From: a bacterium
GTDB taxonomy: Bacteria; Bacillota_I; Bacilli_A; Mycoplasmatales; Mycoplasmoidaceae
Length of the DNA stretch: 52,121 nucleotides
Direction of reading: 5' to 3'
Assembly: GCA_017633195.1 (NCBI GenBank)
Contig: JAGBPV010000059.1
Location: 1-52,121 of the forward strand
The first letter of the stretch is position 1; every line of letters begins with the position of its first letter. Made by a program: the position numbers and the translations under genes. This document shows, piece after piece, positions 22,034-48,955 of this stretch. A model generated the notes under the pieces. That model searched no databases, was not told the DNA's origin, and saw only the letters and a list, made by a program, of their open reading frames with translations.

Positions 22034-22109
22034 AGGAGTATAGTTCTAATGGTAGAACAGCAGTCTCCAAAACTGCGTGTTGTGGGTTCGAATCCTACTA
22101 CTCCTGCCA
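22034..22109 (+). tRNA. trnW: tRNA-Trp, anticodon CCA
   Basis: Complete cloverleaf: acceptor arms AGGAGTA and TACTCCT, D-arm GTTC/GAAC, anticodon stem GCAGT/ACTGC with loop CTCCAAA (anticodon CCA), T-arm GTGGG/CCTAC with TTCGAAT, discriminator G and encoded CCA end. It reads TGG. Nearly all Trp codons in the window are TGA, which needs a second tRNA-Trp (UCA) not present here. Confidence 0.97.
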
Positions 22110-22116
22110 AGATATC

Positions 22117-22150
22117 TAAAATTAGGAAAAAAGTAATTTCCTAATTTTTT
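22117..22150 (+). terminator. Intrinsic terminator after tRNA-Trp
   Basis: AAAATTAGGAAA pairs with TTTCCTAATTTT around a short loop (22130-22137) and runs into a T tract. It separates the tRNA from the defence island. Confidence 0.85.
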
Positions 22151-22202
22151 ATTCCCTTAATTAATTTATGATTCCCTTAAAAATGCTAAAATTTAAGGGA
22201 AT
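22151..22202 (+). promoter_or_regulatory. Operator-like repeats and promoter of the Fic gene
   Basis: ATTCCCTTAA occurs at 22151-22160 and again at 22171-22180, and its reverse complement TTAAGGGAAT lies at 22193-22202, seven bases before the Fic ATG. Between the last two copies is an extended -10 box, TGC-TAAAAT (22184-22192). A regulator binding these three sites would cover the promoter. The Fic protein's own C-terminal winged-helix-like domain is the natural candidate, but this is inference. The message would be almost leaderless. Confidence 0.6.
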
Positions 22203-22208
22203 AAATAT

Positions 22209-23249
22209 ATGAAAGAATTTAATTATTTAAACTTAAATGATTTTTTATTAGATCAAGAAATTTATAATTTAATTATAGCAATTTATAAAGAAGTTGGTAA
22301 ATATCAATCATATGAAAAGATTCATATAAAAGAACTAAATAAATTGATTAATTATACTTTATTTCAAAGCACAATTACTTCAAATGAAATTGAAGGAATA
22401 AGAACTACAAATACTAGAATTAATCAATTATTTAGTAATAAAATCTCACCAAAAAATAAAAATGAAGAAGAAATTTTAGGATATAAAGAAGTTTTAGAAA
22501 TCATTAATAATAGTTATGATGTTATTCCAATTAATAAAAATCATATTTTACAATTACATCAACTTTTATATAAATATACTAATGTAAGTTATAAAGGTAA
22601 AATCAAAAATGTTCAAAATTATATTTCTAAAACTAGTAATAATATTACAAAAGTAATATTTACTGTATTAGATCCATATGAAGCAAATATTGCACTTGAA
22701 GAAATTTGTTTAAGATACAATGAAACTATTTTTATAAAGAATTTTGAACCATTAATTTTAATTCCATCTTTTATTCATGACTTTTTATGTATTCATCCAT
22801 TTAATGATGGAAATGGAAGAATTAGTAGATTATTAACCACATTATTGTTATATAAACATAAGTTCATGATTGCTAAATATATTTCTATTGAAAATTTAAT
22901 TAATAATACTAAAGATAATTATTATCAATCATTATATTTTTCTCAACATCATTGATATGAAAATAAAGAAGATAAAAGTCATTTTATTAAATATTTTTTG
23001 AAAATTCTTTTAACTGCTTATAAAGAATTAAACAAAAAACAAGAATTTAATAAAAAGGATAATGCATATGAAATTGTCTTAAAAGTTATTAATAATTTCA
23101 TTGGCAAATTTAAAAAAGATGATGTTGTTAAAAATTGCTTAAATTTAAGTTTAAGTTCTATAGAAAACTCATTAAGAAAATTAGTAAAAAATAATGTAAT
23201 TAAAAAAGAAGGAAAGGGTAAAAATACTTATTATTTTAGGTATTCATAA
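22209..23249 (+). CDS. Fic-family AMPylator with winged-helix C-terminus
   Basis: Fic-fold enzyme expected to transfer AMP (or another NMP) to a target protein. The 346-residue product carries the full active-site motif HPFNDGNGRISR at 196-207 with catalytic His196. Upstream, TSNEIEG (about 58-64) matches the auto-inhibitory helix motif S/T-x-x-x-E-G that blocks ATP binding, so it should be self-restrained. Residues from about 275 on look like a winged helix (SLSSIENSLRKLVKNNVIKKEG). One TGA-Trp near 22953. It is the first gene of the defence island, behind its own repeats. Such Fic proteins can act as toxins, regulators or housekeeping modifiers. Confidence 0.92.
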
Positions 23250-23315: not shown

Positions 23316-24479
23316 ATGAAATCTAAACAATTTAAATTTATCGATTTATTTTCTGGAATAGGTGCTTTTAATATTGCTTTAAAAAATTGTGGTGGTGAAT
23401 GTGTTTTTGCTTCTGAAATTGATCCTTATGCAATAGAAACATATAAACAGAATTTTCATATTGATTCAAATTATGATATTACTAATGTTAATGAAAAAGA
23501 TATTCCAAAGCATGATGTATTATGTGCAGGTTTTCCTTGTCAAGCTTTTTCAACTGCTGGAAAAAAATTAGGTTTTTCAGATGAGAGAAGGGGAAATTTA
23601 TTCTTTGAAATTATTAGGATTCTTAATTATCATAAAACAAAATTTATCATTTTAGAAAATGTTGAATATTTGTTAAGACACGATGATGGAAGAACATTTA
23701 AAAAAATATATGATACGTTAAAAGAAACAGGATATATTTTAACAAAAGAACCAATTATTTTAAGTCCACATAATTTTGGAATTCCACAACACAGAAAAAG
23801 AATTTTTATTTTAGGTGTATATAAAGATTATTGCAATGATGAGTATTTAGACATTGATATTAACATCGTAAATAAATTAACTTCCATTAATAGTATTTTA
23901 GAAAAAAAAGGAGTTGATTCTAAATATAGTATAAGTGAATATGAAGAAAAAGTTTTTTGTGCATGAAATGAATTTTATAAAAGAATTAATAAGAAAATTT
24001 ATGGTTTTCCTGTATGAGTTGATGAATTTGGTCAAAATTATTCAATTGATAAGTTTCCAAAATGAAAGCAGATTTATTGTATAAAAAATAGAAATTTATA
24101 TTTAGAAAATAAAGATATAATTGACAAATGATTAAATGAATTTAATGTAAAAGATTTTAAACTAAGAGATAGAAAATTTGAATGACAAGCTGGAACTGAA
24201 TGCAAATCTGTTTGAGAAACAATAATTCAATTTAGACAATCAGGAGTTAGATTTAAAAGACCTAACTATTTCCCTGCATTAGTTGCAATAGTTCAAACTC
24301 CAATTGTTGGAAAATTAAAAAGAAGAATAACTCCAAGAGAAGCTGCAAGATTGCAAAGTTTTCCAGAAACATTCATCATAAATAAAATAGATGATAAAGC
24401 ATATAAACAATTTGGAAATAGTGCAAATGTTAAAATTATTGAATATTTAGCAAAAAAGTTGTTTAATAAATATAATTAA
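23316..24479 (+). CDS. DNA cytosine-5 methyltransferase (Dcm type)
   Basis: 387-residue m5C methyltransferase. Motif I DLFSGIGAF (about 10-18) binds AdoMet; motif IV GFPCQAFS holds the catalytic Cys75; motif VI is ENV; motif VIII is QHRKRIF; motif IX RITPREAARLQSFP and motif X FGNSANV close the fold. The target-recognition region between VIII and IX is about 130 residues; its target is unknown. Eight or so TGA-Trp codons lie within it, so it would not be made whole in a standard-code host. It is followed after 13 bases by the HNH nuclease gene, making a likely restriction-modification pair. Confidence 0.96.
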
Positions 24480-24492
24480 TGAATTTCTATAA

Positions 24493-25581
24493 ATGAATAA
24501 ATCTAATGATATTTTAATTTATAATGATATTTGATATGGTAATTTAAGATCAGAAAATTCCAAAGATTTTGAATATTATCATAAACTAAATATTGCTGAT
24601 TTTAAGAAGATTCTTTTAGATTTAAATTTTAAAATAATAGAAATACCAACATTATCAAATAAAAGAACAGATATTCATTTTTTTAAAGTATCAGATAAAA
24701 ATAACAATAGATATAATTTATTGTGTGAAACGTTAAAACATTCAGGAATTAATAAAACATATAAGGATAAAGATACAATTAGAGTTCACATAAGTCCAAT
24801 GATAAAACAAAATAGTGAAGATAGATGCTATTTGTTTGGTTGCTATAAAACTGGTGATAAATATCTAATTGTAACAACAGAATTAACAAGTTATTTATCT
24901 AAATCAAGTATTACTAAAAATAATTCTTCTTTTTGAGTAGGTACAATCAAAGATTTATTAAAAATTTATAATTTAGGTGAATATGATTGAAAAAGAATAA
25001 AAAGTAATACTTTATTTCACGGAATTGAATTATCAAAACTAACTAAACTAAGTCAAAAAGAGATTATAAAAAAATTATTTGATATAAATATTTTAGATAA
25101 TAAAAATATAGTTGATGAACAATCTTCAACTGAAATCAATAATTTTAATAGCGAATATAATGTTGAACCTAGAGATATAGATATTGATAATTATTCAAAG
25201 TATAAATTAGATACTGATTTGCCAAGAAACCATAAATATAGAGAATTAGCATTTAAGAATGCTAATTATACATGTGAATTATGTGGTAATAAAGAAACTT
25301 TTAAAGACAAAAATGGAAATGAATATTTTGAAGGTCATCATTTGATAATGTATAACATAACTAGTCAAAAAAGATATAAAAAATGTTTAGATATCCCCAA
25401 AAATATTGTTTGTTTATGCCCTAATTGTCATAAAAAAATTCATCAAGCTGAAGATAATGAAATGAAAAAAGGTTTGATGATTTTGTTTGAAAAACATAAT
25501 GAGTTATTTGGAATATATGAAATTGAAAATATGGATGATATTTTATCAGATTATAAGCAAGAAAGAAAAGGAAGAAATTAA
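24493..25581 (+). CDS. HNH endonuclease, likely restriction partner of the methyltransferase
   Basis: 362-residue protein with a C-terminal HNH nuclease domain (about 245-330): zinc pair CELCG, then EGHHLIMYN with the catalytic His pair, the central Asn in the DIPKNIVCLCPNCHKKIH stretch, and the second zinc pair CPNC. The N-terminal ~240 residues match nothing I know and may hold the DNA-recognition part. Start ATG 24493 lies 13 bases after the methyltransferase stop, and the frame crosses several TGA-Trp codons. It is followed after five bases by the GHKL ATPase. The context argues for cutting DNA that lacks the cognate methylation, or for a role inside the larger defence complex. Confidence 0.85.
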
Positions 25582-25586
25582 TTGAA

Positions 25587-27143
25587 ATGAGTGAAATAGA
25601 AAATGAATCTATTGATATAAGAAGTACATTAGGTCAAGAATTAGATTATTATGAAAAAAGAACATACAAACCAGATTATGCAATAGCAGAATTTGTAGAT
25701 AACTCAATTCAGAGTTATTTAACAGTGAAACCATTACTTAAATTAATAGATTCAGAATATAAATTAAAAATTGAAATTAATTATGATATAAATAATGATT
25801 CTTTAGAAATTAAAGATAATGCTGGTGGAATGACCAAAGAAGTATTTAGAAATGCTTTGATATTAGGGAATAAACCAACCAATTTAAATGGGCTTAATGA
25901 ATTTGGATACGGTTTAAAAACAGCTGCATCTTGATTTGGAAAAACATGATCTGTAAAAAGCAAAAGTTTCAATAGTAATCAAGAATTTTTGGCATTAGTT
26001 GATATAAAAAAATTATTACAAACTAATAATAATTCTATTGATATTGAAACAAATGAAGTAGATAATAATGATCATTATACAATTGTGAAAATTACTTCAT
26101 TAATTAAAAAGATAAGTGAACATAACATAAATAAAATCTTTAAAAGATTATCATCTTTATATAGAAAATTTCTTATTAACAAGGAAATTATTATTACTTT
26201 TAATGGTCAAGAACTAAATTATACTGAACCAGAATTTTTAACTACGAAAGAAAATAACGAAATCAAAACATGAAAACGAGAATTTAAGGATTCAGTTTTT
26301 TTCAATGGACAAATTTACCCAATATCTGGTTATGTAGGTTTATTAAAAGATGGATCTTACAAGAAGACTGGTTTAACTTTGATCAGAAGAAAAAGAGTGA
26401 TAATGGGTGGGAATGATGAAGATTTATTTAGACCAGAAGAAATTTTTGGCATTGCTGGTTCAACATTTGCATCTTTTAGACTTATTGGTGAAATTGAAAT
26501 GGATAAATGGCCTGTTACTCAAGCAAAAGATAATTTTGATTGAGATTTAAATGGATTAAAAGAAGCATTTATTGATAAAATAAAAGAAATTTCAAAAGAT
26601 TATATACATTACGCTAATGAATATAGGGTTAAAAATACTAAACAAGTTATAACAGTTAAAAATGTACAAGGGTTTGCTGATGAAACAATCAGAAATATTA
26701 AAAGTATTGACCCAAATCTGCAAATATTTTTAAGAAATGAAAAAGAAAAAATTGAAGAAAAAATAGATACTGAAGGCAATTCTGAAATATTTTGTACATA
26801 TCCATTAACAATTTTTGGTGATGATTATAATATTACAATTAAGTTTTTTTCTGATTCTGAACAAGATCTTATTAATATAAAATATGATGATTCAGATATT
26901 ATTAGAAAAATAGCAATATCGTTTAATACAGCATGTAAATTATTTTCAAATTTAAATGAAAAACCTATGTTCATAAAAGCAATGCAAAAATTTTTTGTTG
27001 GATTAGTTATTGCACGACAAAAAACTTTAAAAGTTTCTGATGATGGAATAAATATTAATCCTGATATCTTAATGGATAATTTAAACCAGACTTTGTATGA
27101 AATGTCCAAGGATAATGATTTTATAGAAGATAATTATGAGTAA
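25587..27143 (+). CDS. GHKL (MutL/MORC-like) ATPase 1
   Basis: 518-residue Hsp90/MutL-type ATPase. Bergerat-fold motifs are clear: N-box AEFVDNS (Glu35, Asn39), G1 DNAGGM (77-82) and G2 GLNEFGYGLKTAA (102-114). An S5-like segment follows, with a conserved Lys-bearing loop in PVTQAKDNFDW. From Iyer and co-workers' analysis of MutL homologues in restriction-modification operons, such proteins act with a Z1 helicase and a DNA methylase in phage defence. Uses one TGG (DKWPV) besides many TGA. It overlaps the Z1 gene downstream by eight bases. It is homologous to, but well diverged from, the minus-strand ATPase at 31462. Confidence 0.9.
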
Positions 27144-29281
27144 TTTACTTTATAAAAATGCACTAATAGTTTTAGAAAATCAAGATATAACTTCTGAATC
27201 AAGAAGAAATTATTTTTTAGATAAAATAAAAGAACTTTATGATAAAATCCCAAATCCATATAATAATTTAAATTCAAATATAGGTTTAATCGTTGGAAAA
27301 GTTCAAAGTGGAAAAACATCGGTAATTATAACTAGTTCTGCTTTTTGTTTGCAAAATGGTTATAAAACAGTAATATCATTTTTATCAGACACCAATATTT
27401 TATTAAAGCAAAATTTTGAAAGAATAAAAAAAGCTTTTAATGGAATTGAAAATGTAAAGATATTTTCTTTAGAAGACTTTGAACAATTAACTTCTAAAGA
27501 TTTGGAGTATTTATATAAAAATGAAATCAAATTGTTTATATGCATTTTAAAACATAAAAAGTGAATTAAAAAAATTCTGGATATATTAAAAAAATCTTTA
27601 TATGCTAATGACTATACATTAATTTTTGATGATGAAGGTGATGATATTTCTCAGAACAATTTAAACGAACATAAAAAATTTGATTATAGTAATGAAGGGA
27701 ATTTGATAGAAAAAAATTTCTCAAAAACTAATGAACAGATTAAATTATTTAAGGAAATCTTCAATAAATATTCATACATTTCTGTTACAGCAACTCCACA
27801 ATCCATTGTTATGTTACAAAAGACTCAACATCTTTGTCCAGATTTTGTTTTAACTATTGAACCTAGTAGTGAATATTGTGGATTACAGTATTTTCATATA
27901 CAAAATCATGATTCTTTAATTAAAACAATAGAACAAACTCAAAATAAAATTAACAATGAAAATGGAATTTCTGAAGATTTAAAAGATTCATTTTATTTTT
28001 TTATTGCTGGATGTTTTTATAGAAAATATTAACAAAAGACAAAAATTTCAAGCACTCAATGATGATTCATACAAGCAATGTCATTAAAGATCATGAAGCA
28101 ATTTGAATTAAAGTAAAAGAGTTTTTTACGCAAATAGAAGATGGGATAAAATTTAAAAGACAAACATCTTTAATGTTTTTGTACAATACAAATCAAAAAA
28201 TAAAAAGTTTTAATATAAATATACCTGAAATGACATTAGAAGATTTATCTCGTATTTTAAAAGATACGGACATAATTTCTTTAAATAGTGGAGATGATAA
28301 TAATATTAAAGATATAAACAATCCCAATGTTTCAATTCTTCCGTTTAGAATTATTATAGGTGGAAATTTATTAGATAGAGGTCTTACTATCAATGGTTTA
28401 GCTGTTGTTTACATCACTAGAGATTCTAAGATAGCGTAAATGGATACTTTTTTGCAGAGAGCAAGATGATTTGGTTATAAAGTTGATTATATTAATACTT
28501 GCAAAATTTATTTAACTGCAGAATTAGATAAGAAATTTTTAGAAATAGCAGACAATGATTTAGATCTTTGAGACCAATTGACTTATTGCTCTAAAAATAA
28601 TATTTCTCCTAAAGAATATTCATTTGAATTTGAAATTGATAGTTCAAAATTATTACCAACGTCCAGAAATAAAGCGTCATTTGAAAATTTAAAATTACCT
28701 TTAAAAATAGTACAAAAATTCTTTACATTAAATAAAGCAGATAATGAAAATAATATCAATTTAGTTAAAAATTTAAAAGAAAAATATCAATATAAGATTG
28801 AACCAGAAAATTATGTTGGTCAAGTACATAAAAAAATTGTTTTAAGAATTAGTGAAATAAAAGAAATTTTTAAAGATTTTAATTTTTCAACAGAAGATAA
28901 AAATTGTACTTACGAAAATTTATGCTTTTATTTAATAATCTAAAATATCATGATAACGATAATATTGATATTTTATTTATGAATAGAGATAATAATGATT
29001 TTGAGTATAGATCTACTATGAAAAATACAAATGAAATTTTGAATATAATGCAAGGACAAAGTGTAAATAAAGAAGTAACAGATTCAAATTATTATAAAGG
29101 TGATAGATATATTGTGCAAGAAAATCCCATGTTACAAATTCACAATATTATTTTAAAAAATGATGTAGTAGATAATAATAATGTTATATATCAAAAAGAT
29201 GATTATATTGTCATGATTGCACTATTATTTCCTGATAAAGATTATAAGAAAACTTTAATTAAAAGAAAGGAATTTATTTAA
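27136..29281 (+). pseudogene. Z1-domain helicase 1, disrupted
   Basis: Superfamily II-like ATPase of the Z1 family, coupled to GHKL ATPase 1. Motifs remain in order: Walker A GKVQSGKTS, Walker B DDEGDD, SVTATPQS, GGNLLDRGLTINGL and DTFLQRARWFGY. Three lesions break it: a 1-nt loss in the A run at 28023-28026 (frame ends in TAA 28030), a TAA at 28437-28439 just before the last motif, and a 1-nt loss in the T run at about 28925-28928. Restoring the two bases gives 2148 nt, exactly the length of the intact Z1 gene opposite. The stop at 28437 is directly followed by an in-frame ATG, so restart is conceivable. Either real decay or homopolymer sequencing errors. Confidence 0.85.
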
Positions 29282-29300
29282 CTTTTATTTAATAGCTTTA

Positions 29301-31448
29301 CTAGTATCTTTCATCTCGAATAAAACCAATTTCATTAGTTTTATTTGGACAATAAAAAGCAAACATATATTGATTGTAATCATCATTTAATATTTCAGTA
29401 ACTACACCATCTTTTTTATATTGCGGTTTAATTCAATAAATTTGAATAATAATTGCATCTTTATCAACAATGACTTTTGAATCTCCTTCGTATTTCATAT
29501 TTTCAATATTTGCTGAATCCTTACCTTGTTGTAAAGCATAAATATCACTATCATTTTCATAAAAACTACGTAATCTTGGAGTGATATCAATATCATTTTT
29601 TAAACCAAACATTTTTTCAAGAATTATTTTTTTATTAGATTGTTTCAAATATTTTAAATTTGATTTTAATGGTTCAGTATAGAAAATATAATTTACATGT
29701 TGTATTAAATAATCTAAATCTTGTTTTTGAATTTCTGTATATTTACATGAAGGTACACTTCTATTATGAGTTGCTACAAAAGAATCAGTATAAGTAAATT
29801 TTTCTAAGAAATTTTGAATTAAATTGTTATTATACTTATTAATTTCAATTTTGAAACATCCTTTTCTTTGACATATTCATATATTTTTTAAAATATTTTT
29901 GTATGCAGCAACATTTGCTCTAGTTGGATTCAATTTCCTATTACCACTATTAATTATAATTTCACTAATTTTTAATTCATCTTTTTCAATTGCTTCACAT
30001 TGTACTCAAATATCTTTTTCTGTTTCAGTTAATTGCACAAAATCTTGTTGTATTTTTTTAGTAGTAAATATTTTACAAAAATTAATGTATTTACTTCTGT
30101 ATCCAAATCATCTTGCTCTTTGGAAAGTTGTATCCATATTTGGTATTTTTGGAGATATTGTAAAATAAGTTGTTATTAAATTATTGAATGTTAGTCCTCT
30201 TTGCAATAAATCTGCCCCTATATAAATTTTGTGATTATGATATTTTAAGTTACTCATAGTTTCTTTGCCTTGACTGTTTTGTAATACTATATATGTGTCA
30301 TTTATAGCATCTTGTAATTCAACTATAAGACTATTAAATGAATATTTTTCTGTAATATCTTTTTTAAAATATAATGTATAAATTTTTTCAAATTCGTTGA
30401 TATAGTAAGAAAAGTCATTATTTTTAATTGATGATTGTAGACTATCTATTATTTGACAAATTTGTTGATATTGTTGATTTTGTGTTTGTATTTTTCTATT
30501 TGTATGAATTACCATATCAGTATAATTATCTTTTTTATTAAATTCAATTTTTATAATTACACTTGCTAACAAAAAATAAAAAATAGCATCACGTAAAGAT
30601 TTTGGTATTTTATCTTCATCTAATTTTTCTAAATCTTTTTCGCTTACAATTATTATTTTTTCATCATTAAGATGAAAAAAATCTGCGCCTGTATAACCAT
30701 CTCCTGGATGAATTAAAAACAATTTATTTGGTAATAATTTTGATGAATCATTTAATAAAACATTGGCATATGGTGTAGCTGTGACTGCTAAATATAAAGG
30801 ATTTTTTAATATTCTTTTCATTTCATCAATTGTACTATAAGTAGCAGATTCTTCATCTTTACGAAATTTAGTGTTTAAACTTGCTTGATCAGATTCATCA
30901 TCAATTATAAAAGTTTTAATATTAAATTTTTGCATATAATTTAATATTTTTACAATTTTATTCATTGCAGCAGGTCTTTTCATAGACATAAGAAAAAAAG
31001 GTTTATTTTTTTGCAGTAACTTTTTAATAATTATTTCATCTAAATTGTCAATATTGTTTTCATCATTTTTATTTGTAGAAAATATTTCTGCAGAATTGTC
31101 TTGGAGTTCATTTGTATCTTTTATATCAAATGTATTTATAAACCGATTACATGTTTGCTTTAATAAAGTACTATCATATCCACCATAAATAATTGCACAT
31201 TGATATCCATTATCAAATGCAAAGGCACTTATCATTTCAAGATTTGATGTTTTACCAGACTGAACTTTTCCTATCAACAATACATTTTTATTTTCTTCAT
31301 TTGACTCCATTAAATCCTCACATTGATTAAAGATTTTTTTAACATGATTTTTAATCTTTAATGCTTGATTTTCACCATATTTATTTTTTTGTTTATTAAA
31401 TACTTTATCAACAAAAAATCCTTCCTTGGCTTCATTATTAAGTTCCAT
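29301..31448 (-). CDS. Z1-domain helicase 2 (intact)
   Basis: 715-residue Z1-family ATPase reading through TGA-Trp codons to TAG at 29301-29303. Motifs: Walker A GKVQSGKTSN near residue 62-70, Walker B DDESDQAS, AVTATPYA, ADLLQRGLTFNNL and DTTFQRARWFGYRSKY. In the described GHKL-Z1-AIPR systems this protein is the helicase-like motor. It starts 13 bases after GHKL ATPase 2 with AGGAAA as ribosome binding site, so the two form an operon. It ends 19 bases from the end of the broken Z1 gene on the other strand, with no terminator between. It is only distantly similar to Z1 copy 1. Confidence 0.9.
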
Positions 31449-31461
31449 AACATTTTCCTAA

Positions 31462-33009
31462 TTATTTGTTATTTTTTGTTTCACTAATTTTCATTAAAAT
31501 TGAATTAATATTTTCATGCAAAATTTTTCTTATCATCATTCCTTCAACGTTTTTCAAATTATATGTTGTTTTTTCTGTTAAATTTTCTGCGATTATTAAT
31601 CCAATTACAAATAATTCCATTTTCTTCTGAAACTCTTTATCTTCTATATATGGTTTGAAAAAAGAATGATTTAAATTAATAGTTATGATTGAGTGTTCTT
31701 CATCATAATTAACTCATGAACTGTTATTTGTTAATTCTCATTTTACAGAAATTTTTTGATTATTTACTTTATCAATCTTAATGTTATAAGTTCTTGATTC
31801 AGATTCTTTATGTTCAATTAAATCATTTTGTTTATTTTGATTATATTCATATAATTCAACATCATCTAATTTACTTAAATCTACATAATTACACTTATCA
31901 CAGTTTTGTCCATCTAAAATTATTTCATTTAATTGATTAGAAACTTTTTCTTTCATTTCATCAGAATTAGTTTTATTAATAGTTTCATTTTCTATTCTAT
32001 CTTTTACAGATATTTCAGCAATTTGTATATATTCTTTAATTTCATGCTTTAATTTTTCTAAAAACGCTTCTTCTAATCCATCATCTCAAATAAAACCATC
32101 TTTTGCTTGATTAACTGGAAAATCTTCCATATTTAATTCACCATAAAGTTTTAATGATATCTGACTTTGTGGTTGACCAAATATTACAGCAGGTTTATAT
32201 TCTTGTCCAATTCCACCTAGAACAATTCTATTGTATCTAAATAAAGATAACCCTGCTTTTGCATATCCTCCTTTTTTTAAAATTCCAATAAATCCACTAA
32301 CATGATAAGTTTTATTTTCAAATAGAAATTCAAAATCAAGTTCTTTTTTTCATATTTTGTTTGAATAATATAAAGGTTCTAATTCTTCTGGAACTAATCT
32401 AATACCATCAAAATAGATTTCTATTTCTTTACTTTTTAAATCTCTTCTATAAATACTTGTTAAAAGTTCAATGACTTTTTTCTTAGCCTTAGGAGAAATC
32501 TTTTTTGTTAATTTTTTAATTACAATTTTAGTACCATGTTCATTTTCATTTGTTAAATTAGTATGAATATCAATAAAATTAGATCCTGATTTTTTTAGTT
32601 CTTCAATGTCAATAGTTGCTGTATATTCTTTTTTTGAATTAAGTCTTGTTGTTTGTACAGTTCAATAATTACCAAATCATGATGCAGCAGTTTTTAAACC
32701 CATACCAAATTCATTTCTTCCATTCAAATGATCAGGTTCTTGTTCCATTAGTAATGCTCTTTTAAAATCTTTTAAATCCATTCCACATGCATCATCTGTT
32801 ATTGTTAAAATATTTTGATCACAATTGTAATCAATTCAGATAGTCACCTTATTAATTCCACATTCTTTTAAAAGTTCTTTATTTCCTAGAAAAGATGCAG
32901 TTGAATTATCTACAAATTCAGCAATAGCATACTCTAGTTTATAACTTAAACGAGAAAATGCTCCTAAAATAGCTGCTTGTGGTTGTATATTTAATTTTTC
33001 ATCTACCAT
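31462..33009 (-). CDS. GHKL (MutL/MORC-like) ATPase 2
   Basis: 515-residue Hsp90/MutL-type ATPase with N-box AEFVDNS (Glu31, Asn35), G1 DDACGMD, G2 GRNEFGMGLKTAA and the S5-like lysine loop FPVNQAKDGFIW. I chose ATG at 33009 over the in-frame ATG at 33036 because AAAGGAA sits seven bases before it. A loop at about residue 395 holds a Cys pair (CDKC). The protein aligns with GHKL ATPase 1 over the whole length, with only about a third of residues shared by eye, so this is not a recent duplication. Operon with Z1 helicase 2. The gene diverges from the AIPR gene across a 495-base gap. Confidence 0.9.
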
Positions 33010-33504
33010 TTTTATTTCCTTTGTCGATATATTCAAAAAATATTTTAAAAATGTCTAATATTTTTACATTTATTTTATTTCTGTATTGTTTATATATGGA
33101 AATGTATCATATTACCTTCTGATATTTTAAATTTTAATGTAATACTTTGTAAATTAGTCAATTCATTCGTAGTAATAAACTGGAAAAACCAAATTAGAAA
33201 AGAGTCTCTTCTTATTTAGTGACTCTCATTTAATTTTGATTTTATAATTTAATGCTTTTATTTCATAATCATACATAATAAAATAACTTCTTTCATTAAA
33301 TTCATTCTAAATATAAAAGCAAAATTTAAAACATAATATGTATTAATTTGTATTATTTGAAAATTAATTTTTTAAAGTAGTTATTTGAAAATTTTATCTA
33401 GATATAGATTAATTTATATTTAGATATTATTTAAAACAGATCGTAGTTATACTAAAATTTAAATCAATATAAAATTATTCAAAAGATCAAAGGTTTTAAT
33501 AATA
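33010..33504. other. Intergenic region between divergent GHKL2 and AIPR genes
   Basis: 495 bases with no convincing ORF. It must hold two divergent promoters. Visible are: a short stem AGAGTC (33201-33206) / GACTCT (33221-33226) with no T tract; a direct repeat TTATTTGAAAATT at 33353-33365 and 33381-33393; a pair of TAGATAT-type repeats at 33397-33425; and TATACT at 33448-33453, a candidate -10 for AIPR. The repeats upstream of TATACT could be operator sites. A small RNA here cannot be excluded. Confidence 0.5.
33448..33453 (+). promoter_or_regulatory. Candidate -10 box of the AIPR gene
   Basis: TATACT at 33448-33453 lies about 50 bases before ATG 33505. AAAGG at about 33490 serves as a weak ribosome binding site. 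No clear -35 is seen, as is common in Mollicutes. Confidence 0.35.
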
Positions 33505-35334
33505 ATGAACAATATTGATTCAAATTTAAATATTGAAAATAAAATAAAAGAATTTAAAAATAATAATCAATTTTTATCAGATAAATCAGATTCCTTTACT
33601 TTTCTTTTATATATCTTAAGTAAAGAATATTTTGAATTCAAGAATAATAATGATATTTCTAAAATTGCTGATTATATTATTTCAGATAAAGAAGATGCAC
33701 CAATTAATTTTATGTTCACTCAAATATTATCAAGTGAAGAAAAAACAGATTTAGTAGTAGGAAAAATTAATTATAGCAATAATTCCACTTTATATGAAAT
33801 ATATGCAGATATTACAAAAACTGTTTATAGGTTTAAAGATTTATATAAAAGTTGAGAAAATGGTAAAAGTGATTTAGAACAACAAACTATAGATATTTTT
33901 GAAGAATATTCAAGTTCTGGAATTGTACAATTTGTTTTTTTGTATCCAAATATAACAAATCATGATAATAATCTTGACATTAGTAAAATAAAAGATTATT
34001 TTAACTCTATCCAAAGAGATGACACTAAAAATTGATTCTGTGAAATTCAGTTATCTGATCAAATAACAAATGAAATACTTAATGATGAAGATGAAGAACA
34101 AAATTTTATAATTAGTGATTATATTAAGATTGAATCCAAAGATATTTTAAAACATTCCAATAATGCAATCATAGCTAATATATCAGCATATTCTTTAAAA
34201 GAATTATATGATAAATATGAAAATAAATTATTAGAAGCAAATATTCGAAATTATATAAAAAATAAAAATATTGATGGTGATATTAAAAATACAATTGAAA
34301 ACTCTCCTCAATCTTTTTGGTATTTAAACAATGGGATAACAATTGTTTGCAATAGATTTGAAGAAATAATAGACGAATTAAAAATAAAATTATTTAATTT
34401 TTCAATTGTTAATGGTGGACAAACTACATATTTAATTTCTAAATTTGCAAAAAAAGAAAATGATTTTTATTTAGTTTGTAAAATTATTGCTACTTCAAAA
34501 AGTTTATCAAATATAAAAATAGATTTAAATGAGATAGCAAAAGCAAGTAATTCTCAAAAACCAATAAAAGAACATGATTTGTATTCTACTAGACCAGAAC
34601 AATTATTATTCAAACAATATATGAGTGATATTGGTGTTGAATATATTACTAAAAGAGGTCCAAAAAAACATATTTCTATTCATCCTTATGATTCAACAAC
34701 AATTGATCACTCAGGACAAATATTGATGTCTGCATTGCTACAAATGCCAGGATATGCAAGAAGTAATAAAAAAATGCTTTTTAATAAAGCGAAAAATTAT
34801 TATGGTTTGTGTTTTCCTATCAACGATAAACAATTACTAAAAAATCATGCAAATATTGTCAAACAAATACTTATTCTTCAAATAATATACAAGAAATATT
34901 TAAAAACATTAGATAAAACATTACCAGAATTATCATATGCAAAAAATGCAAGAACTTTAATTATTTCTTTTGTTACTTTATTAAGCAGAATCGCAAATAA
35001 AACAATAAATGTAAATGAAATATTGCAAAAATTATCTTTTAATGAATTTGATAAATATGAAAATAATATAACAGATTTTTTTCCAGATAATATTTCTTTT
35101 GATCATATTTATAGTTCTTGTGTTGATGTTGATGAACTTGATAACAAATTATTTCCACTATTTGAAGAGATTATTAAATATGGTTATTTATCTTATATTG
35201 ATGAACAAACATCATTAAATAATGTAACTGAAACAAATTATTTAAAATCAAATAGTTCTTACATAAAATTATTGAAATATATAAATGATAAAATTGGATT
35301 GCAAAATTTAGCAGATAAATTTTTTCCATTTTAA
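33505..35334 (+). CDS. AIPR-family (abortive infection phage resistance) protein
   Basis: 609-residue protein. The AIPR signature is visible in the middle: LLEANIRNYIKNKNIDG, then PQSFWYLNNGITIVCNRF, then FSIVNGGQTTYLISKF, and later EIAKASNSQKPIKEHDLYSTRP. This family is found in abortive-infection operons and in the GHKL-Z1 systems, where its biochemical role is not established. Trp is coded by TGA and by one TGG (SFWYL). The gene is divergent from the GHKL2-Z1-2 operon and followed, after 135 bases, by the SRA-like gene. It is the only AIPR gene for the two GHKL-Z1 modules. Confidence 0.9.
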
Positions 35335-35442
35335 TTAATAAACTATCATTTTAAATATGCAAAATTTATTATTTTTATAAGATTTATTTAAATTCAACTT
35401 ATTAAAAGTAAATAAAAAGATTATTAGAATTTTATGATGTGC

Positions 35443-35472
35443 GATAATTCATAATAATGGTTTTTTATTATG
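35443..35472 (+). promoter_or_regulatory. Extended -10 and start-codon hairpin of the SRA-like gene
   Basis: TGC-GATAAT (35440-35448) looks like an extended -10 box. CATAATAA (35450-35457) pairs perfectly with TTATTATG (35465-35472), whose last bases contain the ATG. Initiation would fall inside or just after the left arm, so the message is near leaderless and the start may be occluded only in read-through transcripts. Confidence 0.4.
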
Positions 35473-36174
35473 GATAAAGGTGCACAATTTATTATTGATA
35501 ATTTTAAACAAGCAGTTGCTGTTTGTAAACAGAATAATTTTTATAATATATTCTATAAAAAAGTATTGTTTTTATTTAATACCATTTCTGGAATTAAATA
35601 TACAGGAAACATGATTGAATATTTCTATAAATATAAGAAAGAAAATAATTCTTTTAGGAATCTTAGTTTTCTTAAAGAATATAAGATTATTGCTAAGAAT
35701 GAAGTTTCTGATTATTTAATTACAAATTTTCCGAATGAAGTAAATCATTTATTTTCAATAAAAGATTTTTTAGTTGATAATTTTTATTCTAATATGGATA
35801 TTATAAATGCTTTTGGTTGTAGTAACGTTGGAGGAATGAGAAGATCCAAAAAACATAATGCTTTAGTTTTAGTAAATATTTGTTTTAATAATCTTTATCA
35901 AGATAAATGAACAAAAGAAGGAATTTTAAATTTTACAGGTATGGGCAAAATTGGTCATCAATCAATTGACTTTGCACAAAACAAAACTTTATATAACTCT
36001 AAAACTAACAAAGTTAAACTATATCTTTTTGAATCTTATAAGAAGAATCAATATTGTTACAGAGGAGAAGTTGAACTTTGTGGCAATTGATTTACCGCAC
36101 AAGAATATGATAAAAATAATAATTTAAGAACTGTCATTAAATTTCCACTTAAATTAAAACAGTCTAATCAATAA
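35470..36174 (+). CDS. SRA/YDG-like modified-DNA reader domain protein
   Basis: 234-residue stand-alone protein. Its C-terminal half reads FGCSNVGGMRRSKKHNALV, LYQDKW, NFTGMGKIGHQSIDFAQNKT, LYLFESY and YRGEVEL. From memory this is the SRA-like fold seen fused to HNH nucleases (McrA type) and to DUF3427 superfamily II helicases, where it is thought to sense modified DNA. Here no nuclease or helicase is attached. The N-terminal ~95 residues are helical and unrecognised. Two TGA-Trp codons. It may read m5C marks made by the island's methyltransferase or modified phage DNA. Family call by eye only. Confidence 0.6.
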
Positions 36175-36224
36175 ATTAACATATAAAAATTTATTTTTAT
36201 ATTCTTTATAATTAATCCAAAAAT

Positions 36225-36254
36225 TTAGCACTTTATTATTCTAAGTGCTATAAT
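36225..36254 (+). promoter_or_regulatory. CIRCE-like HrcA operator overlapping a promoter
   Basis: TTAGCACTT-N9-AAGTGCTAT (36225-36251) fits CIRCE (consensus TTAGCACTC-N9-GAGTGCTAA), with a perfect 8-base inverted repeat TAGCACTT/AAGTGCTA and the exact 9-base gap. TATAAT at 36249-36254 overlaps the right arm, so a bound repressor would block initiation. ATG of the small His/Asn-rich ORF is 32 bases further on. CIRCE controls dnaK, clpB, lon and the like in Mollicutes, so heat-shock control of this ORF is inferred. Confidence 0.7.
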
Positions 36255-36285
36255 ATCATTAGTTTTATATAAATGAGAAATCATT

Positions 36286-36438
36286 ATGGGACAATGCTCT
36301 AATAAAGATCATTCAAAGAGTGAATGTGATCATCATTCTAATCAAAAGAATCCAAACAATCATGAACACAAAGATGAAAATAACAATCACTCAAATCAAT
36401 TAAATCCAAATAATAAAGAATATAAAAGAAATAAGTAA
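36286..36438 (+). CDS. Small His/Asn-rich peptide under a CIRCE-like operator
   Basis: 50-residue ORF, MGQCSNKDHSKSEC at the start, two Cys (4 and 14), six His and many Asn, ending in a basic YKRNK. There is no membrane segment or signal. The Cys and His spacing could bind a metal, but no known motif fits. The ribosome binding site is weak. Support for a real gene is the promoter with CIRCE-like operator upstream and the terminator downstream (36482), which together form a complete monocistronic unit. No homologue recognised. Confidence 0.55.
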   Translation: MGQCSNKDHSKSECDHHSNQKNPNNHEHKDENNNHSNQLNPNNKEYKRNK

Positions 36439-36481
36439 ATGAATTTCTTTTAAAACTTAAGATTTAATATAATTTCAAAAC

Positions 36482-36521
36482 AAGCAATAATTCTTAATGA
36501 AATAAGGATTATTGCTTTTAT
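36482..36521 (+). terminator. Intrinsic terminator
   Basis: AAGCAATAATTCTTA (36482-36496) pairs with TAAGGATTATTGCTT (36503-36517), one G-T pair, then TTTATTTAT. It ends the CIRCE-controlled unit. Confidence 0.75.
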
Positions 36522-36605
36522 TTATGTAATTAGTTAATATATTAATAGATATTAATTGAAAGTGTTATTATTAATAAATCTGAGATAAAGGAGAAAATAA
36601 TTATT

Positions 36606-36674
36606 ATGTGTAAATCTTGTAAAGCTCATGCTAAAAAGAACAATGATAATAATGAAAATAATTCTAATAAATAA
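36606..36674 (+). CDS. 22-residue CxxC peptide
   Basis: Tiny ORF MCKSCKAHAKK followed by an Asn/Asp/Glu-rich tail, ending at TAA. It has a strong AAAGGAG at 36587-36593, though spacing to the ATG (12 bases) is long, and a perfect bidirectional terminator downstream. The C-x-x-C at residues 2-5 plus His8 could hold a metal. It resembles the preceding 50-residue peptide in having Cys at the start and an Asn-rich tail. A real product is plausible but unproven. Confidence 0.4.
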   Translation: MCKSCKAHAKKNNDNNENNSNK

Positions 36675-36715
36675 GAATTAAGTAATAAACAAAATAATTT
36701 CTAAAATTAGACTTT

Positions 36716-36755
36716 AAAAACTACTTATTTTAATCAAATATAATAAGTAGTTTTT
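36716..36755. terminator. Bidirectional terminator
   Basis: AAAAACTACTTATT (36716-36729) and AATAAGTAGTTTTT (36742-36755) form a perfect 14-base stem with A/T runs on both sides. It serves the plus-strand peptide and the minus-strand pseudouridine synthase operon. Confidence 0.85.
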
Positions 36756-37752
36756 ATTTAAATTTATATGTTTCTTTTAGTTTTTTATAAATATCACTGA
36801 TTTGAAAAGCCATATTATCATTTATATGAAAAAAATAGTTTGCTAAAGTTTTATTAAATAATAATTTATATGCAACTAAAATTTGATTTTTAAAATTTTG
36901 TTTCTTATATTTATGTTTTGATGAAAAATAATATTTTCCATCTCCTACTAGTGGATGATTTACATATGATAATTGTGCTCTAATTTGATGAAATCTTCCT
37001 GTTAATAATTCAATTTCTAGCATTGAAATATTGTCAGTTGGATAATAAGCAATAACTTTATATTTTAATAATGCAATTTTAGTATCTTTTTCTTTTTTAT
37101 CAAATACTAAAGCAATATTATTCTTTTCATCCTTTTTTAAATAATGCTTTAAAATTCCTTCTTTTTGTTCAAATTTGCCATAAACATATGTATAGTAAAA
37201 CTTTTTTATTTCTTTGTCTTCAATTGCTTCATTAATTCTTTTTAAAGTTGCATAATTTTTACTAGCAATCATTAAACCACTTGTGTTTCTGTCTAATCTA
37301 TTACTTAGTGCTGGTGCAAAAGTATTTTCATTTTCTAAATCATATTCATTTTTGTTATATAAATATTTCTTTATTTGATCAATAATAGCATCATATTCAT
37401 TTGCATGTGAACTGTGTGATAATACCCCAGCAGGTTTATTAACAATTAATAAATTTTGATCTTCATATATAACTTCTAAATCATTGCTTGCATTCATGAA
37501 TGATAATTTTGGTTCATATTTTTGATATATTAAATGATTCTTATTATTTAATGTATCTTCATTTACATAAAAATTAATTTCATCATTTATTTGTAATCTA
37601 TAATTGTTTTCTACTTTTTTTTGATTAACTTTAATTTTTTTAGTTCTTATTAATTTATTGATCAAAACTTTTAATAAATTAGGATAACATTTAGCAATAA
37701 AGTTATCTAATCTTTTATTTACATCATTTTCTTTAACTTCAATTTTAAACAT
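36754..37752 (-). CDS. RluC/RluD-family pseudouridine synthase
   Basis: 332-residue RNA modification enzyme. An N-terminal S4 domain (about 1-70, RLDNFIAKCYPN through KVNQKK) is followed by the catalytic domain: NKPAGVLSHSS, then SNRLDRNTSGLMI with the catalytic Asp (the usual His before RLD is Asn here), and LLTGRFHQIRAQL with the RNA-binding Arg/His. It probably modifies 23S rRNA, like RluC/D. Last gene of a three-gene minus-strand operon; six bases separate it from the gene before. The stop lies beside the bidirectional terminator. Confidence 0.92.
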   Translation of the reverse strand: MFKIEVKENDVNKRLDNFIAKCYPNLLKVLINKLIRTKKIKVNQKKVENNYRLQINDEINFYVNEDTLNNKNHLIYQKYEPKLSFMNASNDLEVIYEDQNLLIVNKPAGVLSHSSHANEYDAIIDQIKKYLYNKNEYDLENENTFAPALSNRLDRNTSGLMIASKNYATLKRINEAIEDKEIKKFYYTYVYGKFEQKEGILKHYLKKDEKNNIALVFDKKEKDTKIALLKYKVIAYYPTDNISMLEIELLTGRFHQIRAQLSYVNHPLVGDGKYYFSSKHKYKKQNFKNQILVAYKLLFNKTLANYFFHINDNMAFQISDIYKKLKETYKFK

Positions 37753-38883: not shown

Positions 38884-40674
38884 ATGGCAAAAGAAATTAG
38901 AATTAAATTAAAAGATCCTGATAAATTAGAATTTGAATTATTAGAAGATGCTAAAGTTGGAGATTATATTAATCTAAATACTGCTTATGATAAAGCAAGT
39001 TTAGATGATTTAAAAAGTATTTTACAAAACAAAAAAGCTGAATTAATTAGTGAATGAAAAAAAGAAAATGAAAATCAAATTTTTCAAAATGGAATTAACT
39101 TTTTTAAAGCAAGTGCAACTTTTCAAAAATTAAATGAAGATAATATTAAGTTTCAACAAGAAATACAAACATTAAAAAAGAATTTAGAAAAACAAAAAGA
39201 AATTGATGCAATTAAAGCAGTTGAAGCATTTAAAGATTCTAAAGAATACAAAACTTTAAAAGAAGAATTAATAAGTAAGCAAAATGAAGTTATTAAATTA
39301 GAAGAAGAAAACAAAAATAAAGTAGCATTATTTAAAAATTCACAAGAATATTTAGATTTATTAAAAAAATCAGAAGAAAATAAAGATCTAATTCATCAAA
39401 TAAATGATTTAAATAAGAATAAAGAATTAGAAGTTAAAAATGCAATTTTAAATTCTAAAGATAAAGTTATTAAAGAATTTAAAGAATCACAAGAATATTT
39501 AGATTTAATTAAAAAAATAAAAATTCAAGATGAAGATTTAATAAAAAAACAAAATCAAATCGCAGTTTTAAACAACGATGTTAATAATGCAGTTTTAAAG
39601 TATAAAGATTCTAATGAATTTAAAGATTTATTAAAACAAAATGAAAAAAATAAAGAATTAAATTTAGAAATTCAAAATCTTCATAAAGATAAAGCAAAAG
39701 AAATTGAAATTGCAATTTTAAAATCTAAAGATAATGCAATTAAAGAATATAAAAATAGTGATGAATATTTAAATTTAGTGAATGAAAATAAAACTCAAGC
39801 TAAAGAATTAAACAAGATTAGTAATGATAATTTAATATTAAAAAATGAAAATGAAGAATTAAAAAATCAAAGAAATTTAAAAAGTAATAAGTTAATTGGT
39901 GAAGATTTAGAAAATTGATTAAGTCAACAATACCAAGAAGATTTAGAAAGTGTTTTAGAAGATAGTATTTGACAAAAAACTAATATTGTTCATGATGGAA
40001 CTAAGCCTGATTTTATTTTTAAAGTAAAAAGTAATCTTGAAGAAATTACTGATGAAAATGATCCTTTATATTATTTAGGAAAAGTTGTTATTGAAGCTAA
40101 ATCAGAAAGATATGATTCGTCTAATAAAACTAAGAATAAAGAATTCTTGCCTAAATTAAAAAAGGACATGGATAATTTAGGAGGAGATTATGCTTTATTA
40201 GTTACTGAACTTGAAAGTAATGATATTTTTTCTATTAAAACTTCAAGAGAATTTCCTAATATTTTTATTGTTAGACCAGAATGAACCATGAGTTTATTAA
40301 AAATCTTAAGATATATTTTCTTAAGAAAAAAAGCATTATTTAAACAAGAATGAACTTTTAAAGAAAAGAATGATATTTTAAATGAATTTGAAGATTTTAA
40401 AAATTCAATTTTAGAAAATGCTTTTAAAAACATTAATAAACATTTAGAAAGCATTAAAACTGATGCAGACAAAATCATTAAATCAGCAGAAAATATCTTA
40501 GAAAGTCAAAAAATAATTGTAGATAAACATATGAATGCAATTGAAAATAAGATTAATAACTTTAAAATTGAAAATAAGGTTGTTAAGAAAATTGCAAAGT
40601 TAAATAGTTCTAAACATGAAACCAATGAAGAAGAATTGGCTTTAGTAAATGAATTAGATCATAAAGAAGAATAA
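38884..40674 (+). CDS. DUF2130 coiled-coil protein, putative PD-(D/E)XK-type nuclease fold
   Basis: 596-residue protein. Residues about 70-335 are a long Lys/Glu coiled coil, in which a roughly 70-residue unit with KDS-x-E(Y/F)-x-x-L-like blocks recurs. The C-terminal domain (about 337-490) has LIGEDLENWLSQQYQ, GTKPDFIF, VVIEAKSERYD, FLPKLKKDMDNLGGDYALLV and FIVRPEWTMSLL. This matches DUF2130, a family I recall as related to RmuC-like nucleases: D in KPDF and E-x-K in EAKSE could form the active site. TGA-Trp codons at 39056 and about 39917. RBS TAGGAG. Role unknown; DNA repair or recombination would fit the fold. The next gene starts after six bases. Confidence 0.75.
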
Positions 40675-40680
40675 AAATAA

Positions 40681-42264
40681 ATGCAAGAGATTCATACAAA
40701 TCATATTAAAGAAAATACTGTTAATTATAATGATTTAATTGTTAATAAAGCAAGAAATACACAGTGATTATTTTTAATAAGCACAATTTTTGTGATTAGT
40801 TATTTTGTGATTATTGCTTTATATGTTATTCATAGTAAAGAATATCCAGTATTATTAACTGTTTTTATTGTTTTAACTGCAATTTTTATTTTAATTCCTT
40901 TTGCGTTCTTTTTTAGATATAACTATTTAAGTAAAAAAATCTTAGGAATTGAATTTAAAGAGATTAATCATTTTTATTTTAACAAAGTAAAAAAAGCACA
41001 AATTGAAATCATAATATGAACAATTATTAGTAATATTACTTGTTTTTCTTTGTTTGTAATTTCTAACTTCTTATCAGTTAAAGTAAGTCACTTTCAAAAT
41101 TACTTTACCATGGGTTTTTTATTAGTATTCTTTTTTAGTAGTATTTTTGTTTGGGTAGTAATAATTTTAAACTGTAGAAAAAATAGTACTTTATTTTCAG
41201 TGATCATTCAATTTTTTATATCAACTTTTGAAAATGAACCTGATTTAATTAAAAATCCTAATAACTTTACAATTTTATGCCAATATAATGGTTTTAAATA
41301 TGAATTCTTAGAAAAAGTTTTAAATGGAACTTATTGAGTTAGTAACTTTATGTGAATTTATATTATTTCTGCTTTAATTGGTACAGCTTTTGCTACAGAT
41401 GGACCAGTTGAATCATTAATCTCAGTGATTGATTTATTAAGTTATTTTGGTCCTTATTTCTTCTTATTTTATGTAAGAAGTATGATGGTGAAAGAAAAAG
41501 ATACTTTAAGTGGATTTAAATTATTAAGAATTATTAATGATACAAAAATTAATAATATTTATATTTGATTAGTAAATATTCAAAAACACTTTAGTGAACA
41601 TTCAGTTTACTATAAAAGAAATAATACTTTTTATTGATGTATGCGAACTTATAATCAAAATGTTTATATTAATAATTATTATTTATATAGACTATATAAA
41701 TATTTTAAAGTTGATTTTACATATTATGAAAACATTTCAGATGGGTTTATTGATACTTTAAGAATCTCAGATATTACTAATCAGTTTGATCTTGATAATA
41801 ATTTTGTTGATGAGCAACAATTTAATTTTATAGATTTTAAAACAAAGAACATAATTGGATTATTTATATTAAGTAAAAAAAATGCAGTTTATTTTTTAAA
41901 TGAAATTAATAAATATAAATTACTTATTAACTATAATCAATTTTTTATTGATAATTTTACAAGTATTAGTCATTCAAAGATCTTTTTGTATTTTGATCAT
42001 GAAAAAGATAAATTTCAAGTTATTCCTCATAAATTACTCAATATTAAAACAAAGGAAGGAATTAATCTAATCTTATTTTTTAGTCAAGCTAAATTGCACA
42101 AAATTATGAATAATTATTATAAGTTTAGTTTTGATTTTACAATCAATCCTTTTGAACAAAAAAGGATAGAGCAATTACCAAAACAAACTTATTTATGTTC
42201 AATTAAAAACTTTACACATTTCTTTAAAAAAGTAAGTAAAATTGCAAATGAAAAAAATAGTTAG
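40681..42264 (+). CDS. Hypothetical membrane protein with six helices and a soluble C-terminal half
   Basis: 527-residue protein. Hydrophobic segments lie at about 34-56, 62-84, 108-130, 142-165, 219-240 and 248-268, followed by a soluble domain of about 250 residues with no motif I recognise. The frame is held through many TGA-Trp codons and includes one TGG (FVWVV). It starts six bases after the DUF2130 gene and probably shares its transcript. The stop codon lies inside the left arm of the terminator that follows. Confidence 0.75.
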
Positions 42265-43110: not shown

Positions 43111-46100
43111 TTATATTGTTTTAAATCCTGTAATAGTAAATGTATTTTGTGCATTTGAAGTTTTTAATTGTATACCATTATAATATAATTTAACATTACT
43201 AATTTGTCCATTATTAATGTCAGATTGTGAAATAGAACTTGGTAAAGTAATACTAATTGCATTAGAAATGTAATATTGGTTATAACTTAAATTATTAAAA
43301 ATAAATGGTGAATTTGGCATTCAATTATCAATGACTTGAATAATTGCACTATATAAACTACTTTTATTATTTAAAATTTCACTAACACTAAAAGTACTCA
43401 TTGTATTTCAACTTAAAACATTAATATCTGCTACATTTATTGTTGAATTTAAGTATGTATCTAATTTATTTGCAATGATTTCATTGATATTGTTTTGTGA
43501 ACTAGTTTCATTTGCATTTAAAAATCCTGTAATAGTAAAAGTTGAACTTCCATTTGCTGCATTTAAATACATTCCATTAAGTACTAATTGCACATTATTG
43601 ATTAAAGCATTTTCATTTTCATTTAGTGAAATACTATTTGGTAAGAAAATATTAAGTGTTCCACTAGCTTCAAAATTAATATCATGAGTAGTAAATAAAG
43701 AGCATAAAGCAATACCATATCCTGCTTGTTTTATTGCTTTTTGCACATAAAGTGTTATTGCACTATATAAACTTGATTGATTATTTGTACTATTGCTTAA
43801 TGCATCTGCAGCAGTATAAGTATTCATGTTTAAATAAGAAGCAAGCAATATTGATATTACTATTTAAAAAAGAATCTATTTTTTGTATTTCATATACAGT
43901 ACTAACTTCATCATTTGAATTCTTTGAAGAAGCATTTTCAAACCCAGTTAATGTAAATGTTGATGCTTTATTTTTACCAACCAATTCAATACCTTCATAT
44001 GATAATTTAATATTTGGAATTAATCCATCTTCATCATTACTTATAGAAATTCCATTTGGAAATAAAAAGGTAATTTTATTTAAAATGTCAGATAAACTAT
44101 AACTAGAATCATTGATTGAAAATGTACTAATTGAATTTTTAAGTTCATTATTTAATGCTTTATTCATAATTTCATTTAAATCACCAAATATCATGATGTC
44201 ATCTGGTGTTCAAGTATTTAATTGTCCCAAACTTGTAATATTAATATTTGCTACATCAATAGTATTGTTTAATAATGAATCTAATTTAGTTGCAATTATT
44301 TCATTAACATTTTGTGTACTATTTGAAACATTAGTTGAAGATACAAATCCAATAATATTAAAGATTGAATTATTATTTGAAGTTAATGTTAAACCATTAT
44401 AAGATAAACTAACATTGATACTTTTTGAATTATTAAGAATATTTGTTTTAGAATTACTTAATAAATTAATGTTTATTCCACTTAGAATTTCTAGTGAAGT
44501 GTAACTTAAATTACCAATTACAAAATTATTAAGTTCTTTTACAATTTCATTTTGTATAACTTCTTTAATTAAATGCTTTAAATATTTTATATTATTTAAT
44601 GCATATGACACAGTAAGATTATTTGTTAAAGCGTATGAAGTAAGATCAATATTATTGTTTAAAATTGAATCTAATTTAGTAGCAATAATTTGATTAATAT
44701 TATTTGATGTTTTATAAGAAGGATTATTTAAAGTTAGTGAATTTAACTTTAAAAATCCATTTAAAACAAAAGTTGTATTACCATTAGTAGTATTTAATAA
44801 AATTCCATCATATAACAGTTTTACATTTGTTATTTGTCCATCTTCATTATCTAATAAAGAAATACTGTTTGGTAAAATATAGTTAATAGAAATATTTGCA
44901 TTTTTATTAATATTTTTAGTATTAATAATTGCTTCATTAATTGCATGAGTAATTTGATTGTTTAAATAATTTGCTTGATATAATGCATCTGCTGCAGTAA
45001 TAGAATTTGAAGATAAATAGGTTGAAAGATTAATAATATTGTTACTTAATTGTTGATCAATTTCATAAGCTTCATTTAAAACATTATTTGAATTATATGA
45101 ATTAATAGTTTTAAATCCTGAAATTGTAAAACTAGTTTGATTATTTTTTGATGTTAAACTAATTCCACTATATGATAAAAATACATTCGGAATTAATCCA
45201 TTTTCATCATTACTAATTAAGATATCTTGTGGTAGAGTAATTGTAATATTTTTAGTAATATCTGAAATTGAATAAGAAGAATCTTCAATATTAAATTTAA
45301 CATTTAAACTTGTTAAAAAACTAGTAATTTCATTAATAATTGCTGTTTTTAAATTACTAGAATTATTAAATAATGCATCTTGTGCACTAATAGTATTCAT
45401 TGTTTCATTATTTGAAATATTAATATTGTTACTTAATAAGGTATTTAATTGATTTGCAACAAGTTGATTAAAAGCATTATTTCATGAAGGACTTGGTGAA
45501 CCAAAACCTGTAATAATAAAACTTGAATCTCCATTTTTAGCATTTAAACTGATACCACAATATGACAATAAAACCCCATTAATACATGAATTTTCATTAT
45601 TTGATAAAGAAATTGCATTTGGTAACTTAATAATAATGTTTGATGCAATTTCACTTGCTGTGTAACTCAAATTATTAAAGCTAAATAAAACATTAGAATT
45701 TAATATTTCATTTTCAATTTGATATTTTATTGCATAACTTAAATTAGAACTTATTAAAGAATAAGAAGCACTTGATTCACTACCAGCATATATTTTACTA
45801 AAAGTTTGTATATTAATTTCATTATTTAATATTGAATCTAATTTTGTAGCAATTAATTGATTAATATTATTTTTTAAATTTGATATATTAGAATCTTTTT
45901 GTATTGAACCTGAACCATCTTCATTTTTTTTATTTTTATTAACTGTTTTATTTTCTTTGTTGCTATTAGAAGATCCATCATCATTTTTTATTTTTGTTCC
46001 ATCAGTTTTTGTATTTGATGAACTTGTATTTTTAGAACCAGAATCACTATCACTAACTTTAGTGTTTTTATTTTGTGTTTTATTATTTGAATTTTGATTA

Positions 46101-46639
46101 GGAATTTCTGTAGTTTTTTTAGAGTTATTAGTTGATAATGAATTAAATCCATCAATAATAAATGATGAACTTCCACTAGTATTTTTTAATTGAATTGAAT
46201 GATAAGATAAATAGACATTAGTAATTTGATTATTTTTATCATCATTACTAGAAATTGTTTGTGGTAATTTAATACTAATATTGTTAACTATTTCAGATGA
46301 AGTATATGTTAAATTATTAAATACAAATTGATGAATGTGATCTTGTATTTCTACTTGAATTGCTTCTTTAATTGCATTAATTAAATCATTTGAATTATTT
46401 GTTAATGCTTCTAAAGCACTTAACTTATTCATGTTTTCATAATTGCTTATATTAATAATCTGATTTAATAATGAATCTAATTTATTAACAATTGCTTGAT
46501 TATTATTTTCACTTAATTTATTTGTGGATTTCTTTGGATTATTACTAAAAGCATACAGAGGAATAGTTGCAGTAACTGCTGATATGATAGTAACTGATGA
46601 AAGGATTGCAGCAGATAATATCAATGTTCTTTTTTTCAT
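43111..46639 (-). pseudogene. Exported eight-repeat surface protein, frameshifted in repeat 7
   Basis: A signal-type N-terminus (MKKRTLILSAAILSSVTI, no lipobox Cys) leads into eight repeats of about 130 residues. Each starts with N-x-I-x-x-I-(A/V)-x-KLDS-(I/L)-LN, has a middle LSYT-x-SEI, a (I/L)-x-LP-x-x-IS block, and ends in a (V/L)-x-LSY-x-GI-x-L ... SFxITGF strand. Repeat 1 is followed by a Lys/Asn/Ser/Asp-rich spacer. The frame from 46639 ends at 43790. The tandem GCTTGCTT at 43839-43846 (minus strand) adds one base modulo three; without it the frame runs on to TAA at 43111, giving about 1174 residues and ending neatly at the end of repeat 8. A 949-residue shortened product is also possible. 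Confidence 0.8.
43839..43846 (-). repeat. GCTT tandem duplication causing the frameshift
   Basis: GCTTGCTT interrupts the codon series that in sister repeats reads ATT-GCT-(A/T)CT. Removing one GCTT joins NINIA to SYLNMNTYTAADAL, which matches the other repeats. Confidence 0.75.
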
Positions 46640-46888
46640 ATTATTTGTTTTTTATTAATTTTTTAGATGTTTTTTTATTAAACAAAAATTGGATAATTAT
46701 ATTTAAGGAACTTAAAATTTACTTCAAATTATTATTATATATTTTATGTTTAATATTAATTAAATGAATAATATTCAATAATTTAATATTGATATTTTTC
46801 AATTACATTTATCTTTTGTTCTTTTTAATCCAAAAGATTAAAATTTATAAGTATTTATTTAAAAAATTAGATATAAAAATAAAAGACT

Positions 46889-48955
46889 ATGGATAATCAA
46901 AATAAAGAAGATTTTATATTTCAATTTAAAGATATTGAGAATTATATTGAAAATTTACAAAAAAATGTAAATGATAAAACATCAATTAACAAGAATAAAG
47001 ATAATATAACAATAAAAGAATTAACAATTTTTAAAGAATTTGCACAAAAATATTTATTTCAATTTAATGTAGGAAAAGAACCAAAAGAAATAGATTTTAA
47101 TAATTGATGATTTTGTTCAGGAATAACACTAAAAAACCTTACATTAAACAAAGATAAGAAAAATAAAAACAACAAACCATTAATATTTAGATTAAAAGAT
47201 ATTAATACTGTAGAATTAAAAGATTGCAAAGATGAAAATTTAAAAAAAGAAATAAATAAATTTAAAGATTTTGCAACAAGATATTTGCTAAATTCCAGTA
47301 ATAATGAAAAAGAATTTGATAATTGAACATTTTCTCCACAACCATTAAAAATCAATGATTTAAATAATGATTTATATGATGAAGATGAAATAGATATATT
47401 ATTTATAAATGAAGATTATTTTAATCATACATACTTTTTTCTTGTAGAAATTAAAGATTTTAGTGATAGTGAACTTATTATATCTAAATATTGAGATTAC
47501 AGAAATGCTTTAGTTAAAATAAAAAGAAAAGATCTTAATTTAGAATCATATATTTTTAGTTTATTAAATAAAAATTGTACTTTTATAAGAATAAATATTT
47601 TTAAATGAGATAAACAAACATTTAAACAACAATATTACAAATTTAATCATGAAAAATCAGGAGATTTTTTTGGTTATCCAACAAATAATTGAATAAAAAT
47701 AGAAGAGCAAGAGATTAAAAATATATTTCAAAATTCTCATAACATATGCTTAAAAGATAATAATTTTCATGATTACATAAGACAATTTCATTCAGAAGAC
47801 TATTTAGATAAATTACTTAATAATTGAAAAGATGAAAATTATATTAGTAATGTTTTAGTATCAAATGTTAATTTTAATGATTTAAATCAAATATCAAATG
47901 TTAAAAATTATCGAATAACTGTCATAAATGGAATTCCAGGAAGTGGAAAAACAGTTTTTGCATTTTTGTTATTTATTACTGAAAAGCATGTTTTGTTTAT
48001 CATTACAAATCAATCATCTTATGAGTATTTTAAGAATAATGAGTTTGTAAAAAAAATAGAAGCTGAAAACAAAAGTAAGATGGTTTATTTATGAGATTTT
48101 TTTAAACCAGTAAAAGTTTATATTGATTTTTGTGAACCATATCAAAATTTTGATGATAACTCTAGCATAGATTGATCAAGACCATTAATATTGAAAAACA
48201 ATAACATTAATGAATTTATTAATTATAATAAAATACTAATTGATGAGTATAACAACTTAGATAGTAATGAAGAAATAATAAAAAATTATATTACATCTAA
48301 AAATTTTACAAAATTTTTTTTATTTGGAGATTATTTGCAAGATATTTATTGCCATTACCATACTTATTTACCATCAAATAATTTTAAAAAATATGAAGAT
48401 TTATGCTCATTTTTAAAGAAAAATTATTCAAAAGAATTTTATCTTTCAGATTGAAAAAATTCAAATAGATTTAATAACAAAGATCTTTCAAAACTACAAT
48501 ATATATCTTTTGGAAATGATGATTATTTAAAAAAATATAAAAACAGTGAATTGCAATCATTTATAAATATTGAACTAGAATACACAAACAAAACAAGTAA
48601 TCAAATAGATGCAAAAAAGGGTGAAAAAATTATTGTTTTACAAAGTAGTAACAATATAGATAGTGGTATCTTTACACAATTTAATGCTGCCGGATGTGAA
48701 TATGAAAAAGTAATTGTATATTTGAATTCTAGAATTAATTTTAAGGATAAACACTTTAATTATGAATTTAGTGACAAAACAGTACAATATTCAGATTTTT
48801 ACGATCCAACAGAAACATGATTATATGAAGCTTTAACAAGAGCAACTAGATCAATTAAAATACTTATATATAAAGAAAATCAATATGCAAAAGAAATCTA
48901 TAATTGTATAGACCAAAGAATCAAACAATTAGAAAAAGATAATACAAAAAATTAA
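46889..48955 (+). CDS. PD-(D/E)XK-like nuclease fused to a P-loop helicase domain (DUF2075-like)
   Basis: 688-residue protein. The N-terminal ~140 residues hold two copies of an FKxFAxxYL...NNW unit. A nuclease-like motif follows: Asp169, then Glu187-Ile-Lys189 in FFLVEIKDF. From 348 comes Walker A GIPGSGKT, then ILIDEYNNLDS (Walker B), FLFGDYLQDIY, and near the end GCEYEKVIVYL and WLYEALTRATRSIKILIY, the last helicase motif of superfamily I (as in UvrD C-terminal and DUF2075 proteins). Many TGA-Trp codons. It stands alone between a surface-protein gene and glf. Nuclease plus helicase in one chain is typical of anti-phage proteins, but this is inference. Confidence 0.7.

Follow-up and report, generated by a model that had tools for sequence, protein, structure and literature searches.

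A defence island lies in a stretch of 52,121 nucleotides (contig JAGBPV010000059.1, assembly GCA_017633195.1), referred to here as the window. The bacterium is mycoplasma-like, and what is left in the island of two defence systems that cut DNA, each of a different kind, is arranged tail to tail. The window was read with genetic code 4 (TGA as Trp), because table 11 breaks large genes into fragments that code 4 restores as single open frames. An earlier note on this DNA had named a Dcm-type methylase, an HNH nuclease, two MORC-like GHKL ATPases, an AIPR protein and an SRA-like protein; Table 1 collects the matches for these parts.

Table 1. Features of the defence island, with positions in the window.
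Feature	Position	Strand	Evidence
Dcm-type C5 cytosine methyltransferase, 387 aa	23316..24479	+	Pfam 2.8e-81
HNH nuclease protein, 362 aa	24493..25581	+	C-terminal McrA-like HNH
GHKL1, MORC-type ATPase, 518 aa, open frame	25587..27143	+	Pfam; MORC motif GLTLIRRKRVI
Island part next to GHKL1	27136..29281	+	
Island part next to GHKL2	29301..31448	-	
GHKL2, MORC-type ATPase, 524 aa	31462..33036	-	Pfam; motif GLSLFRYNRIV
AIPR / AbiU-like protein, 609 aa	33505..35334	+	Pfam PF10592 6.7e-31
Predicted SRA-fold modified-base reader, 234 aa	35470..36174	+	SRA fold

Prokaryotic MORC proteins have been defined by a GHKL domain followed by an S5 domain with the motif GhXhhpXXRhl (Iyer 2008). Both ATPases carry this motif, within a putative S5 domain, and no others do among the 41 window open reading frames (ORFs) of at least 150 residues. 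It is present in 89 of the 98 GHKLs of the compared loci. GHKL1 has a relative of equal length and 95% identity (P0008). GHKL2, which starts at TTG or alternatively at an ATG nine codons later, was placed in a DUF4420-type clade.

In one system the motor gene is broken, and of the other nothing but the motor has been kept. Two frameshifts and one in-frame stop were found within 2.1 kb. Sequence error is a rather unlikely origin for these lesions. Two of the three are frameshifts and the genome is AT-rich, but the third is a stop, and the longest nucleotide runs are of 3 nucleotides around it and 5 around the second frameshift. A run of seven T (27996-28002) lies upstream of the first frameshift, within a stretch still aligned in frame. 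Moreover, the 36 other ORFs of at least 150 residues (46 kb) are all open, although ORFs are open by construction.

The methyltransferase scores highest (519 bits) against the Dcm of an HNH-type operon, L001, followed by 474 bits against a DUF4420-type locus. Only the L001 score and adjacency tie it to the GHKL1 module, because its median against DUF4420-type Dcms (308 bits, n=69) exceeds that against HNH-type Dcms (282 bits, n=10). The N-terminal domain of the HNH protein possibly has a restriction-endonuclease fold, and lacks a conserved (D/E)xK.

The AIPR protein resembles the PADLOC models AbiU (7e-26, over 125-514) and MzaE (5.2e-11). It is probably a neighbour tied to neither module. The SRA-fold reader is probably a neighbour as well. 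It shares the SRA fold of SRA-HNH modification-dependent endonucleases, but stops at 234 residues without the C-terminal HNH of its relatives of about 390 residues. No HNH remnant was found in three frames of 36160-36761, nor any HNH in window ORFs of at least 30 residues, save the gene at 24493. In database proteins P0162, P0163 and P0183, the last named mutator protein MutT at its source, an SRA-like domain (PF26348) is joined to PF00293 and PF14815, which we take to be NUDIX domains.

The earlier note had linked the gene set to Mza (mzaABCDE), an identity that the equivalog models do not support. Scores lie far below the equivalog cut-offs (MzaB, 17.6 and 20.4 of 850 bits; MzaC, 102.1 of 1500; MzaE, 52.1 of 1050), and none of the 10 proteins scanned from the island matched MzaA or MzaD. 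In the available part of its description, CglI / NgoAVII has a PLD-B3 R-protein and no GHKL (PMC4267653), whereas the window has HNH and GHKL; neither PLD nor B3 was matched among 12 island ORFs scanned. Matches to PDB structures liken the reader, by its SRA fold, and the 362-residue protein, by its McrA-like HNH, to the modification-dependent HNH enzymes ScoMcrA, TagI and EcoKMcrA. However, the reader differs in lacking HNH and the HNH protein in its N-terminal domain.

At the left edge of the island, tRNA-Trp (CCA), with no exact repeat found within the window, and after it a Fic protein (PADLOC SoFic 2.4e-36) occupy 22034-23249. Between the reader and RluD, two tiny frames, one His/Asn-rich of 50 codons (36286-36438) and one of 22 codons starting MCKSCKAH (36606-36674), may possibly encode metal-binding peptides. 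Beyond, a DUF2130 protein (596 residues) adjoins a 527-residue protein without Pfam or PADLOC match (38884-42264). Minus-strand proteins of 949 and 245 residues without family and a 688-residue protein with weak Schlafen-type helicase matches follow (43111-48955).

Of the 320 genomes in the order of Spiroplasma sp. TIUS-1, presumably the Mycoplasmatales, 316 gave a match to GltX of the window. Identity over the length of this GltX reaches at most about 51-53% among the matches listed, which points to a host of deep lineage within or near that order. The two-module island of the earlier note has been confirmed in part, and its interpretation, either merged systems or one system with two motors, is supported in part. 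A single evolved two-motor machine, with AIPR and the SRA reader as regular subunits, is very improbable. Since one system has a broken motor and the other only its motor left, the island was probably patched together from known parts and does not represent a new machine with two engines.
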